A DNA stretch of 23,883 bases from IMG/VR virus record IMGVR_UViG_3300042335_000391, positions 1-23,883 of that record; one strand, given 5' to 3'. This DNA is from a virus. Below are positions 488 through 8,940 of the stretch, piece after piece; the first letter of the stretch is position 1; each line of letters starts with the position of its first letter. The notes under the pieces are model-generated. The model ran no database searches, was not told the origin of the DNA, and worked only from the letters and a program-made list of their open reading frames with translations. The translations under genes and the position numbers were made by a program.

Positions 488-799
488 TTAGTCATCAAAT
501 TCCTGTTGGCAGAAATCAAACTCGTTGATTCTAAAGACTATAGACGAATCATCTTTAGAGAAATTTTTAGCTGACGCATGAACTGTAAGCTTAGTCCCTT
601 TGGTAGCATACTTTTCTAGGGTTTCTGCTCCAGTGTGCCACGCTTCACACGGCAAATATGTTGGTATTCGATTTTTTTCTCCACTTTTGGTTTTTCTATA
701 TGTATAAACGACCATTACGAATTCGGCTTTTACAACATCTCCAATCATAGAAATACGTGGATTTTCAACCAAATATCCCGTAAACGAACATAGATTCAT
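488..799 (-). CDS. ssb: Single-stranded DNA-binding protein (short SSB)
   Basis: A 103-residue single OB-fold protein. It opens with MNLCSFTGYLVENPRI, matching the SSB pattern of a first beta strand followed by G-L-x-x-(D/N)-P. It continues with VVYTYRKTKSGEKN, then PCEAWHTGAETLEKY, the counterpart of the bacterial 'v.FWgklAE.v..Y' stretch, and ends with an OB strand. The long disordered tail of bacterial SSB is missing; only a short acidic end (NEFDFCQQEFDD) remains, which could be the partner-binding tip. It would coat ssDNA at the phage fork. The start has a strong AAGGAG upstream of the ATG, in a 52-nt gap after the C-terminal polymerase half. SSB directly after the polymerase genes supports the call. 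Confidence 0.8.
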   Translation of the reverse strand: MNLCSFTGYLVENPRISMIGDVVKAEFVMVVYTYRKTKSGEKNRIPTYLPCEAWHTGAETLEKYATKGTKLTVHASAKNFSKDDSSIVFRINEFDFCQQEFDD

Positions 800-851: not shown

Positions 852-2414
852 CTAAATTTCATGTATCTGATTCACTATAAAAGATGAGTCATTCTCAGAT
901 ACTGATCCGCAAAAAATTAAATTATTACCTTCGTATAGTACGTACTTATATTTTTCTTTTACTTTTGGAAACACAATCACACTATCTAATATGCATGTAT
1001 CATCTTCAATAGTTAAAAATGACATTAATTGCCCCTTGGACTCTCCCTTGGTTATTTTATAATCTGAAACTCTTTGTACATTAGCAACTATGCACAAGTC
1101 CTTTCCCTTTTTACCGTTTATAACTTCTTTACAAGTAGTATTGGCGGCAGAAGTATCAGATGTTTCAACCTTAGTCATGCTCACTGGACATCCCAAAAAT
1201 TTTACTTCTTGATCTATAACCCAACTGGGATCATCATCTAAACTATAGGGTGGACTAACCAATAGATTAATCTCGTTCTCTATAGCTTGCTTTCTGTCTA
1301 CCTTGCTTGTGCCACCACCCTCTTTTTTCAGTGGCGCTAAATCCTTTAAGGCTTCTATAAATGTTTGCCATTGCTTAGAGTTATAAGACTCTTGCAACCA
1401 AGTAGTTTCAGCCTTTGTTAAAGTCCTATAAATATCATATTCGTATAGAGCTTTATTCCTAGTAATTTTATCAGAACAGTCTCTAAAAAATCCTATAGAT
1501 GCTAGAGCTTTAAAAGCTGTTGAACTGATTTTTGGACTTAGATATAATAATATTTCTAACCAGCTAAATTTATGTATTTTCTTGCCAAGTTGTTGTGTGA
1601 CTTCTTCTATGGCTTCTATAAGCTTATCGCCCGTTTTGCCCGTCAACGATTTGATATCCTTAATTCCAAAAAAGATTTTATTATTTTTTACATTAAATTT
1701 GCTATCAAAATTAGACAAACTTGGGGTTTTGGCTTCTATATCAAACAGCTTTGCCTCAGAGATTAACTCATATATTTCTTGGTGAGGATCTGGTTTTTCA
1801 TTAGCATAATATAGATAAGATAAGAAAAATTCTTTTGTATGATGAGCCTTTTGATAAGCACTCCAGTAAGAACACACAGCGTATAATATGCTGTGAGATT
1901 TATTAAACGCATAACGCGATGACTTTTCAATCCATCCAAAGATTTTTTCTGCCTCTTCCTTATTGACCATTTTGACGTTTTCAGCGCCTTGTATGAACTT
2001 CTTTTTTACTTTAGCCATGAGATCAGCTTTTTTCTTTCCAATGGCTTTACGAAGATCGTCAGCCTCTCGTAGATTGAAGCCAGCAATCTTTTGAGCTATA
2101 CGCATGGATTGCTCTTGATAAACTAGAACGCCATAAGTTGGGGCTAATATTTCTTCCAAAGATTCGTGTAAGTATGTTACATCTTCGCGACCGTGTTTTC
2201 TGTCAATAAAATGCTGCGTCATAGATTTGCCATCAACATAAGCTTTTAGGCATCCGGGTCTTATTATCGCAATTAATGCAGATAATTCTTCAATATTATT
2301 TGGTGCTAGCTTTTTAGACCAAGCTTTACCAAGGTTGCTTTCTAGCTGAAAAATACCTTTAGTTTTGCCTTCTGCGAACAGTTGCCAAGTTTTCTTATCG
2401 TTATAATCAATCAT
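852..2414 (-). CDS. dnaE: DNA polymerase III alpha subunit, C-terminal half (fingers, HhH, OB domains)
   Basis: This 520-residue protein aligns with DnaE only from the fingers domain onward. FQLES at residues 22-26 is the DnaE fingers motif (E. coli TAVFQLES). YGVLVYQEQSM, AGFNLREADDLRKAIGKK (about 94-128) and RYAFNKSHS (about 167-175) follow in the DnaE order. Next come two helix-hairpin-helix-like segments (about 247-310), an LGCPVS segment equivalent to 'LGfYlSgHP', and an OB-fold (about 436-520) with the pattern MSFLTIEDD then VIVFPKV. The polymerase aspartates are absent; they lie in the separate protein at 3441-5054. The ATG overlaps the end of the EndoVII-like gene by 8 nt. The protein should bind template and incoming DNA, and it needs the other half to be active. 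There is no intein residue pattern at its N-terminus, so assembly is probably non-covalent (inference). Confidence 0.9.
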   Translation of the reverse strand: MIDYNDKKTWQLFAEGKTKGIFQLESNLGKAWSKKLAPNNIEELSALIAIIRPGCLKAYVDGKSMTQHFIDRKHGREDVTYLHESLEEILAPTYGVLVYQEQSMRIAQKIAGFNLREADDLRKAIGKKKADLMAKVKKKFIQGAENVKMVNKEEAEKIFGWIEKSSRYAFNKSHSILYAVCSYWSAYQKAHHTKEFFLSYLYYANEKPDPHQEIYELISEAKLFDIEAKTPSLSNFDSKFNVKNNKIFFGIKDIKSLTGKTGDKLIEAIEEVTQQLGKKIHKFSWLEILLYLSPKISSTAFKALASIGFFRDCSDKITRNKALYEYDIYRTLTKAETTWLQESYNSKQWQTFIEALKDLAPLKKEGGGTSKVDRKQAIENEINLLVSPPYSLDDDPSWVIDQEVKFLGCPVSMTKVETSDTSAANTTCKEVINGKKGKDLCIVANVQRVSDYKITKGESKGQLMSFLTIEDDTCILDSVIVFPKVKEKYKYVLYEGNNLIFCGSVSENDSSFIVNQIHEI

Positions 2415-2754
2415 AATTATTTCTTCTTGATAGCAAATAGTTCATAGCATTAGTAACACCAGTTAAATCGTCTCCCAAAATACCAATTGCAGTATTACAC
2501 TTGTCACAAAGCCACCCCCTAAATGAGTTATCATAATGATTATGGTCTAAATGCCACACCTTTGGAATCCTTCCACAGCACTCACACAGTGCTGGTTTTT
2601 CTGGCGCTATTTTATGCAATTCTTTTCGAAGGTTGGATTGTAGCTTTATACAAGATTTACATCTATTGTCAAGCCTATCTTTATTTTGTTTGTGTTTTGG
2701 AAATTCCGTTATTGGTTTAGATTGTTCACAATATATACAAATTTTATTTGACAT
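2407..2754 (-). CDS. Endonuclease VII-like HNH nuclease
   Basis: From the chosen ATG at 2754 the protein has 115 residues. An N-terminal zinc knuckle (C6-x2-C9 and C32-x2-C35) is followed by C57/C59/C60, then HLDHNHYDNSFRGWLCDKCN, a textbook EndoVII catalytic signature (DHDH, RG, LCxxCN). T4 EndoVII (gp49) cleaves Holliday junctions and branched DNA; shorter members like this one are common as free-standing phage HNH genes and may also act as homing-type nucleases. The frame is open upstream to 2784, but the internal ATG overlaps the exonuclease stop by 11 nt and puts the zinc knuckle at the N-terminus, as is usual. It lies between the two polymerase halves, so it could be a resolvase recruited to the replication block or the agent linked to the split. 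The sequence alone does not decide this. Confidence 0.85.
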   Translation of the reverse strand: MSNKICIYCEQSKPITEFPKHKQNKDRLDNRCKSCIKLQSNLRKELHKIAPEKPALCECCGRIPKVWHLDHNHYDNSFRGWLCDKCNTAIGILGDDLTGVTNAMNYLLSRRNNYD

Positions 2755-3424
2755 ATAAATTTCCATCAGCAAAGGCTTTATCAAACGAAATATTTTGATA
2801 TATTGATCTATGAGTCTTCAATAATTTGATAAAAATATTGGCAGTATCTTTAACGTCTTGCAATGCATCGTGAGCATTTTCAAAACTAAGACCCATTCTT
2901 TCTCTCAAAGAATCCATGCTAATTGATTTGAAACTAGGATCGCTTTCAGTCCACATAAAAACATTATCCATTAAATCAACTTTGTATACTTTACTAAACA
3001 TCTTCTGTTGATTTTTTGTCTTGTCCCACGGGCCAAATTGTTCACATAATCTATTAATAATTATCATATCAAAGCCGATAATGTTATATCCTACCGGAAT
3101 AGGATTAAAAAATGGATCACCTTTCCAATTGTATTGGTCTACAAACTTAGTAAACTTAGACCATACAGATTTTAATGATGGGGCTTCTGCTAGCTTTTCC
3201 CTAGTTTTGCCAGTAACTTTTAATGCGCCATCCTCAATTGGATCAACACCGGCAGCAATTGCTTTATCATCATCAAGTATTGGGCATATTTCGCTATTGA
3301 ATGTACCTTTTACTGATAGATTTCTTCCATCTAATGCTATAGCTGCAATTTGAGTTGGTTGTGTTTTGTGCGGGTTGCGAGAACCACTTTCAAAGTCGAA
3401 CACAATATAGTCCCTATTAGCCAT
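2744..3424 (-). CDS. DEDDh 3'-5' exonuclease (DnaQ/RNase T superfamily), probable polymerase proofreading subunit
   Basis: A 226-residue protein with the three exonuclease motifs in order. ExoI is IVFDFESG (first D and E), ExoII is VGYNIIGFD, and ExoIII is NAHDALQDVKDT with the HxxxxD spacing of the DEDDh group. It therefore fits the DnaQ epsilon-like family, which removes mismatched 3' ends by two-metal hydrolysis. DnaE-type alpha subunits lack an intrinsic exonuclease and use such a partner in trans. Its location between the two halves of the alpha subunit strongly suggests proofreading for that enzyme. An AGGAA precedes the ATG by about 9 nt; the gene starts 17 nt after the N-terminal polymerase half and overlaps the EndoVII-like gene at its end. 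I saw no clear clamp-binding peptide. Confidence 0.88.
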   Translation of the reverse strand: MANRDYIVFDFESGSRNPHKTQPTQIAAIALDGRNLSVKGTFNSEICPILDDDKAIAAGVDPIEDGALKVTGKTREKLAEAPSLKSVWSKFTKFVDQYNWKGDPFFNPIPVGYNIIGFDMIIINRLCEQFGPWDKTKNQQKMFSKVYKVDLMDNVFMWTESDPSFKSISMDSLRERMGLSFENAHDALQDVKDTANIFIKLLKTHRSIYQNISFDKAFADGNLYVK

Positions 3425-3440
3425 TAGTTAATTCCTTTTG

Positions 3441-5054
3441 TTAAATTAAATCTGATATATACATCAATTTGTCAAGAAGTGAAAGACTTAAAACATCAAA
3501 TTTTGGACGCCCCAAAGCTTCTAAATCTGCCATTTCTAATCCAGCAATCTTTTCAGATGAACCTTTTTGTTTTACCATCGGGCAAACCTTATGTAGTGGC
3601 TCTTTTGATATAACAACGCCAGCAGCATGTTTGCCCTGTGTTTTGAATGTTCCCTCTAAATCAATTGCTTGCTGAAAATATTCAGCGTAGTCACCGTCTA
3701 GCTTTCCGTCTTCTGCGATATGGCAAAAATCTCTCAATTCATCTGAACGGTTTAATAATGCCCAACGAATAATAGACCTATCTTCGTCATCCATTTCTGC
3801 TAATTGATCAGAAATTTCTGCTTCGTTGGGAACACTCTTTGTTATAGCATTCATTTCTCCAAAAGAGCAAGCTTCATTTACGCGAAGAACTTCTTTTATT
3901 GCGCTTCTGCCTTGCAATCTACCGAATGTAATCATTTGGCTTACATGATCTTTTCCGTATTTCTCTTTAAGGTAATTAATAACATCATCACGCTTTTTAG
4001 CCGGAACGTCCATGTCAATATCTGGTAGAGAAACGTGATCGTCTGTATTTCTACCGGCGTTATAAAATCTTTCAAACAATAAATCATATTCAACTGGATC
4101 AATTTGGGTAATACCAATTAGATATGATATTAAGCATCCTCCTACACTTCCTCTACCGGGACCACTCATCCATCCAGAATTATTTACATATTTAATGATA
4201 TCTTGTACAATGAGAAAATATCCGAATAGATTAGCTCCTTTAATAACATCAAATTCTTCTTTGAATCTGTCTAAATATTTTTGCTTGGATGCTTCATCAG
4301 AAACTTTATCATTATCAATAAGGAGTTTCTTCCATCCATTTCTGCACAATTCCTTGAGATATTCTTCTTCGGACATATTATTAGGGCATGAAAACTTTGG
4401 TAGCACTGGCTTGCTTAATATATTATAGTCTTCACATTGGTCATAAATAGACTTTAACTCTTTTGTATCTAAATCTTTGGATTCTTCCTTATTTAATACA
4501 TAAAAAGAATCCTGCATGAAATATACTAGCTTATCCATATGCTCTTCTGGATATTTTGAATCAACGCTAATTCCGCCACGATTATCTGGCCTAATTGTTT
4601 TTTGTATTTTAGGAAGCGTGGTTTTCATATCTGAGCATAGCAACACTCTATGAAGTCTAGCATCTGCCTTTTCAGTATAATAACTGTGTGGCATATTCTT
4701 AGATGGAGAGCTAGAAAGCTTGATCAGATTCTTTTTAGCTAGCGTTTGATCTAGCAATTCTTGTGATAGATTACCATTTTCATCTAGCGATGAAACTAAG
4801 GCAATAAGATCATTCCACCCATCTTTATTTTTGGAGAAAAGAGAGAAATTATCAAATGAACAACCTATGATTGGCTTGATCCCAACCTTTTTACAAGCTT
4901 GATAAAATGATACAGCACCAGATATTGTTTTATGATCACAAAGACCACATGCTGGATAATCATTATCTTTGCATTTTTGGGCAAGTTCTTCTGGCTTTGA
5001 AAAGCCACGCAATAGACTATAATGTGTAAAATTCTTCAATGGAAACCAATTCAA
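3441..5054 (-). CDS. dnaE: DNA polymerase III alpha subunit, N-terminal half (PHP-like and palm domains), TTG start
   Basis: This is the N-terminal part of a DnaE-type polymerase, 537 residues from the TTG at 5054. Residues about 1-70 form a PHP-like domain (FTHYSLLRGFS, then KVGIKPIIGCSF), but the metal-binding HxH of active PHP domains is replaced (PLKNFTHYS). GPGRGSVGG (about 298), LFERF and PDIDMDVP (about 344-351, two catalytic Asp) follow, then ITFGRLQGR, KHAAGVVIS (about 475) and KFDVL (about 519, third catalytic Asp). It stops 18 residues past that Asp, where E. coli DnaE runs on into the fingers domain. The frame extends to another TTG at 5075, but CTCCT on the plus strand (AGGAG in the message) lies exactly 7 nt before the TTG at 5054, so that start is preferred. 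No ATG is available near the N-terminus. Confidence 0.9.
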   Translation of the reverse strand: MNWFPLKNFTHYSLLRGFSKPEELAQKCKDNDYPACGLCDHKTISGAVSFYQACKKVGIKPIIGCSFDNFSLFSKNKDGWNDLIALVSSLDENGNLSQELLDQTLAKKNLIKLSSSPSKNMPHSYYTEKADARLHRVLLCSDMKTTLPKIQKTIRPDNRGGISVDSKYPEEHMDKLVYFMQDSFYVLNKEESKDLDTKELKSIYDQCEDYNILSKPVLPKFSCPNNMSEEEYLKELCRNGWKKLLIDNDKVSDEASKQKYLDRFKEEFDVIKGANLFGYFLIVQDIIKYVNNSGWMSGPGRGSVGGCLISYLIGITQIDPVEYDLLFERFYNAGRNTDDHVSLPDIDMDVPAKKRDDVINYLKEKYGKDHVSQMITFGRLQGRSAIKEVLRVNEACSFGEMNAITKSVPNEAEISDQLAEMDDEDRSIIRWALLNRSDELRDFCHIAEDGKLDGDYAEYFQQAIDLEGTFKTQGKHAAGVVISKEPLHKVCPMVKQKGSSEKIAGLEMADLEALGRPKFDVLSLSLLDKLMYISDLI

Positions 5055-8253: not shown

Positions 8254-8940
8254 TTAATTTCCCCTAGTAGTAATAATTCGACATAGTTCTAAAAATCTGT
8301 CTTGACTTAATTCCCACTTCATTTTATTCACATCTTTGTGCAACCATTGTATATTGTCTTTAGTATAACCTAGATCGCTATTTATTCTATCTAATGACGC
8401 TGTTTGCTCTGTCGCTTTTTCTCCAAAAGTCGGAAATTTTAATTCTAATCCAGACAAAGCACATTTATGATTTTGTTTCTCAAATTGATTCCAAATGTCA
8501 TTAATGCTAATTTCAAATATAATATTCCTTCTATCAGCACCATAAACTAATGATTGAAAATATCTTGATGGTATATGTGGGTGTATTCTATTTTTTTCTA
8601 TTGCTAATTTAAATTTTTCACTTTTTGTATGTTCTCTCTCTGGTATTCCGTGTTTTTCCAGAGCCTTCTTTACTATGCTTTTTCTTTTGAATCCAGCTTT
8701 TATTGCTACATCTTTTAGGCTTAAATTTTGTTTTACATAATGCTCTTCTAAGAATTCTTTAGTTAATATATTAGAGCTGTCTTTTAGACTAGATCTATAT
8801 AATCCATATTTTTTAATATATTGATCTATCGAATTATGAGAACTGATATTAAATTCTTTTGCTATTTGATTTATGCTTTTTCTTTTCTCTAAATAATGAT
8901 ATTCTAAAAATTCTTTGGTCAATAGTTCTTTTGGTTTCAT
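8254..8940 (-). CDS. Free-standing HNH-type endonuclease with tandem HTH repeats
   Basis: 228 residues. The N-terminal half holds two copies of a roughly 45-residue unit, beginning LLTKEFLEYHYLEKRKS (about 6) and ILTKEFLEEHYVKQNLS (about 58). Each runs into a helix-turn-helix such as INQIAKEFNIS or LKDVAIKAGF, as in the DNA-binding repeats of intron and free-standing homing endonucleases. The C-terminal half has CALSGLEL, then ASLDRINSDLGYTKDNIQW and HKDVNKMK, a phage HNH-like nuclease core. It is the only gene in this tight cluster with a large upstream gap (82 nt, with a hairpin at 8954-8975), while its stop abuts the next ATG. That fits a mobile homing gene inserted between the dNMP kinase and the RecB-like nuclease. 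The SD is AGGAA about 6 nt upstream. Confidence 0.8.
   Translation of the reverse strand: MKPKELLTKEFLEYHYLEKRKSINQIAKEFNISSHNSIDQYIKKYGLYRSSLKDSSNILTKEFLEEHYVKQNLSLKDVAIKAGFKRKSIVKKALEKHGIPEREHTKSEKFKLAIEKNRIHPHIPSRYFQSLVYGADRRNIIFEISINDIWNQFEKQNHKCALSGLELKFPTFGEKATEQTASLDRINSDLGYTKDNIQWLHKDVNKMKWELSQDRFLELCRIITTRGN

Follow-up and report, generated by a model that had tools for sequence, protein, structure and literature searches.

The alpha subunit of DNA polymerase III (Pol III), the product of dnaE, is encoded by two separate genes in the IMG/VR viral record IMGVR_UViG_3300042335_000391, a 23.9-kb fragment that we analysed over its full length of 23,883 nucleotides and refer to here as the window. 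On the minus strand, the gene for the N-terminal half (alpha-N, 5054-3441) is followed by a DnaQ-like exonuclease gene (3424-2744), an HNH/endonuclease VII gene (2754-2407), the gene for the C-terminal half (alpha-C, 2414-852) and an SSB-like gene (799-488). The subunit is thus not a single polypeptide but is divided over two open reading frames (ORFs), with two complete genes, those for the exonuclease and the HNH protein, between them.

The frame of alpha-N is open from 5075, and a TTG start at 5054, preceded seven bases upstream by AGGAG, gives a protein of 537 amino acids that comprises the PHP domain and the palm/thumb (Pfam PHP, E 1e-18; DNA_pol3_alpha, E 4e-68). Aspartates 347, 349 and 520 of this protein (codons at 4016-4014, 4010-4008 and 3497-3495) correspond to the catalytic residues D401, D403 and D555 of E. 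coli alpha and are invariant among 82 alpha-N homologues. Alpha-C, with 520 amino acids, matches DNA_pol3_finger (E 2e-49) and continues through the helix-hairpin-helix (HhH) region into the OB fold, and the two ORFs together hold the complete domain set of a C-family Pol III alpha: PHP, palm with all three aspartates, fingers, HhH and OB. When each half was modelled alone with AlphaFold2, the predicted local distance difference test (pLDDT) scores were 92.7 for alpha-N and 92.1 for alpha-C, and Foldseek returned Pol III alpha as the best solved match of both models (E 1e-33 and 1e-20, respectively).

The seam, which we placed with chains from the PDB (using HMMER) and with the Salmonella DnaE from GenBank, falls in the variable linker between palm and fingers. 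Alpha-N ends 17 residues past the third catalytic aspartate, and the FQLES motif of alpha-C starts at residue 22. On E. coli alpha, the alignment of the N-half stops at residue 565 and that of the C-half begins at 590, and about 15 residues of the linker are absent when the unaligned tails are counted in; on phrog_405, a profile of full-length phage DnaE, the N-half reaches position 612 and the C-half begins at 626. The segment YAFNKSHS, which corresponds to the site of the cyanobacterial split intein, runs uninterrupted through alpha-C, and domain searches found no intein or Hint domain in either half. The preliminary description of this DNA, made from its letters, had proposed a cut between palm and fingers that leaves all three catalytic aspartates in the N-half, lies elsewhere than the cyanobacterial cut and involves no intein, and on each of these points our analysis agrees with it. 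Its 21 residues ahead of FQLES and its view that the conserved blocks are all retained likewise stand, and its coordinates are accurate to within one residue, the tail of alpha-N being 17 rather than the 18 residues it had counted. In clades B and C (L054, L223, L208, L226 and others), alpha-C opens with a short CxC...C extension ahead of the fingers, possibly a metal knuckle or an interface element at the seam, which the window's subclade lacks.

The genes between the halves

The exonuclease gene encodes 226 amino acids that match RNase_T (E 7e-14) and phrog_192, annotated as DNA polymerase exonuclease subunit (E 7e-26), and the motifs FDFE, FD and HDALQD, conserved in nine sequences, mark it as a DEDDh 3'-5' exonuclease and a probable proofreading subunit. 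In the window, the positions of the PHP metal site (HHDHEH..DH) are occupied by K, F, R, H, S, N, H and Y, which is not the residue set of an active PHP domain. These metal-site residues are lost across the window's subclade, and the full set is found in clades B and C. A DEDDh exonuclease with conserved motifs lies between the halves in clades A and B, and a member of the RNase_T family occurs in one of the six contigs of clade C. Given the loss of the PHP metal site in the window's subclade, proofreading there is probably carried out by the DnaQ-like exonuclease from between the halves, which appears to have taken the place of the PHP site.

The HNH gene (Endonuclease_7, E 6e-11) occupies a position that is informative about its history. 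In relatives that lack it, the ATG of the fingers gene lies within the last codons of the exonuclease (M-x-N, then a D-Y-N-D-K region), an arrangement that suggests coupled, near-stoichiometric synthesis. The equivalent ATG of the window, at 2754, opens the HNH ORF instead, and the fingers gene has a new ATG that overlaps the HNH stop by 8 nt. The HNH ORF thus opens at the very position of the relatives' fingers start, which marks the HNH gene as inserted into a fingers gene that already stood alone; it is a later homing-type passenger that took over the fingers start codon in some members.

Inteins do occur among the relatives. In L140 (4076-6840) and L141 (6001-7966), a split intein at GRG|S in the palm divides the N-half itself into two ORFs, and in L140 an ORF for a DUF7487/TnsA-like nuclease lies between the intein halves. 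In some members of the clade, alpha is thus spread over three genes, of which two presumably yield one protein by trans-splicing, with the third remaining separate. The fingers half carries inteins at several sites in L219, L220, L228 and L229, one of them, in L228, with a LAGLIDADG domain.

Distribution and ancestry of the split

Among viral contigs, searches for both close and distant relatives found this split at well over 100 distinct loci. In 132 of the 138 loci scored, the exonuclease gene separates the two halves, and the typical order in the clade is palm, DnaQ exonuclease, fingers, SSB. Among these 132 loci, 41 carry neither an HNH gene nor other cargo at either junction, 31 carry an HNH gene and the remainder carry other inserts. 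The six scored loci that have no exonuclease between the halves (the deep clade C together with L240) show gaps of 1 to 8 kb.

In a tree of 52 rows, the 23 split rows group together on a single branch, with a Shimodaira-Hasegawa-like approximate likelihood ratio test (SH-aLRT) value of 99, and their sister is L227, a viral DnaE that is fused. A second tree with added phages retained the split clade (99) and placed outside it the cuts of phiT1 and of Corynebacterium phage P1201, both at the palm/fingers seam. These were quick trees, computed without bootstraps, and some of their terminal branches are long. That the split loci share one well-supported branch indicates that the split arose once, and the cut is, as far as these phylogenies can be read, one ancient event, from which a large clade of uncultured phages descends. 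The fused sister L227, used as a query, matched nothing besides itself, and judged by identity the clade contains no annotated isolate phage; the best matches reach about 30%, and those examined are fused.

A bacterial origin of the split was also considered and is rejected, since nearly all matches in a bacterial and archaeal collection are fused. Three contigs of that collection, L238, L239 and L240, have the phage-type split, and a further one, L277, has two adjacent frames that possibly reflect a frameshift. The contigs L238 and L240 were binned in metagenome-assembled genomes of Lokiarchaeota; they are either co-binned phage contigs or derive from a virus of a Lokiarchaeota host.

Assembly of the two chains

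Both halves are under strong purifying selection, with median Nei-Gojobori ratios of nonsynonymous to synonymous substitution rates (dN/dS) over 18 pairs of 0.06 for the N-half and 0.04 for the C-half. We further searched 15 records for replicative polymerases: 14 split ones, of which 13 are 132-200 kb long and one is a 33-kb fragment, and L230, which is fused. Each of the 14 split records has a single palm gene and a single fingers gene, and none has a PolA or PolB match. From this conservation, from the sole-polymerase status of the pair and from the logic of the domains we infer that the halves assemble non-covalently, and it is very probable that the clade builds a two-chain Pol III alpha accompanied by a separate proofreader. 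The single-chain form of one C-family replicative polymerase would have been lost once, in the ancestor of the clade, by a break in the variable palm-fingers loop; the halves, translated from one operon, would then associate, with the palm chain supplying the metal-binding aspartate triad, the fingers chain supplying the primer/template and nucleotide-binding surfaces and, in the window's subclade, the DnaQ-like exonuclease probably proofreading. The HNH gene of the window is a later homing-type insertion into the fingers start region. A stronger version, in which palm, fingers and DnaQ form an obligate three-protein core whose active site arises only on assembly and whose exonuclease helps to hold the alpha chains together, is conceivable but on present evidence doubtful.

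Several observations weigh against non-covalent assembly of a sole replicase in this form. Tight co-translation cannot apply throughout the clade, since 5-10 kb separate the palm and fingers genes in the deep clade C. The contigs may be incomplete, and a second polymerase may therefore lie unseen. A search for the beta-clamp family (domain 2) gave no match in the 13 large related contigs (132-200 kb), and the C-half shows no clear clamp motif; the clamp may accordingly be host-derived, diverged or unused.

Whether the arrangement has a more trivial cause can be judged from the same data. That the split is due to the HNH gene that today separates the halves is suggested by its place directly ahead of the C-half, in the window as in the 31 loci noted above, and by precedent, as homing endonucleases are known to leave phage genes in pieces, for example nrdA of phage Aeh1 with MobE. 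Yet the 41 loci without cargo at either junction are split all the same, the deepest branches have no HNH gene at the junction, and the start of the HNH ORF points to insertion into a separate gene. An HNH gene found in a minority of loci and placed in an existing junction is not the endonuclease of the original event; this origin is refuted for the present copy and highly unlikely overall, though an older endonuclease, since lost, may have acted when the split arose. It is scarcely credible, too, that a diverged split intein or a trans-spliced intron rejoins the halves. The inteins of the relatives L140, L141, L219, L220, L228 and L229 lend this idea some plausibility, but they sit elsewhere, at GRG|S in the palm or within the fingers, and at the seam itself the short tail of alpha-N and the roughly 21 residues ahead of FQLES leave no space for intein blocks; in addition, Rfam searches matched no family, and no intron at E <= 1.

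A decay of both genes into remnants, with the phage depending on the polymerase of its host or on another one, would fit the loss of the PHP metal-site residues in the window's subclade. This loss, however, is accompanied by a conserved DEDDh exonuclease, dN/dS is near 0.05 in both halves, the catalytic aspartates are invariant, the ORFs are intact across deep divergence and no other polymerase was detected, which makes decay very improbable. An assembly or sequencing error in one contig, finally, has practically no chance of explaining the split. P1201 may exemplify such an error, with two overlapping frames at the same seam that may represent a frameshift because its relative Zion has one ORF; in contrast, the arrangement in the window recurs in many independent contigs, with whole genes between the halves, which refutes the error. 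The preliminary description had named such an error and a second full-length dnaE elsewhere in the genome as findings that would overturn its reading, and had proposed a search of phage genomes for the same gene pair. The error is excluded, no second full-length dnaE was found in the 13 large related contigs or the 33-kb fragment, and the gene pair is as widespread as described above. The split of the window as such is confirmed as real, and is due neither to chance nor to misassembly.

Split polymerases in other systems

A split Pol III alpha as such is already known. In the group 2.2 jumbo phages, Pol III alpha is encoded as two phage proteins that have been proposed to reconstitute the enzyme, with no intein reported (Iyer et al. 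2021, PMC7824862). The resemblance to the window's clade ends there, as the jumbo phages have a minimal nucleotidyltransferase/template-binding core, genes that lie far apart and a family B polymerase alongside, whereas in the clade described here the halves are complete (PHP to palm, fingers to OB), their genes usually share an operon in which DnaQ separates them, and the 14 split records contain no PolB. Closer in its position is Rossellomorea phage phiT1 (gp20/gp18; GenBank PV767480), whose dnaE is cut without an intein at the same palm/fingers seam. In phiT1, however, a 49-aa ORF rather than an exonuclease separates the halves, the linker residues are retained and the split is of independent origin on the tree; among annotated phages, phiT1 has no close split relative. 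The adjacent Pol III alpha ORFs of Cellulophaga phages phi13:1 and phiST (gp038/gp039) represent yet another case, cut inside the palm between GRGSAGG and the DIDTD aspartate pair, and with a different position on the tree.

The cyanobacterial split-intein DnaE likewise derives an alpha subunit from two genes, but there the break lies at Y|CFNKSHS and an intein ligates the pieces by trans-splicing, in contrast to the window, where this site is intact and no intein is present. Fractured genes with split inteins and a Vsr-like endonuclease were reportedly described by Dassa et al. in 2009; L140 and L141, with their split intein at GRG|S and, in L140, a nuclease-like ORF, resemble these, unlike the alpha-N/alpha-C seam, which has no intein. 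Some T4-like Aeromonas phages have split family B polymerase genes and thus a replicative polymerase in two chains, although that polymerase family is unrelated. To our knowledge, the C-family replicase is otherwise a single chain or is made into one by an intein, and we found no description of the split of this clade in the open-access literature.

A diverse clade that keeps palm and fingers apart would imply that the C-family catalytic centre can be built in nature from two polypeptides. Since phiT1 repeats this cut, the palm/fingers loop seems to tolerate breakage, which makes it a rational place to divide Pol III for two-component assays. With this clade it can also be asked why the split state persists, as PHP decay accompanies a DnaQ gene between the halves.

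Two further ORFs of the window deserve mention. The SSB-like gene (488-799, minus strand; Pfam SSB, E 5e-7) encodes an OB-fold protein and directly follows the C-half in most loci whose sequence covers that stretch. An ORF at 8254-8940, judged by eye, has two helix-turn-helix-like repeats and an HNH-like end, and it appears similar, again by eye, to the cargo at the alpha-N/exonuclease junction of L134 (7704-8387).
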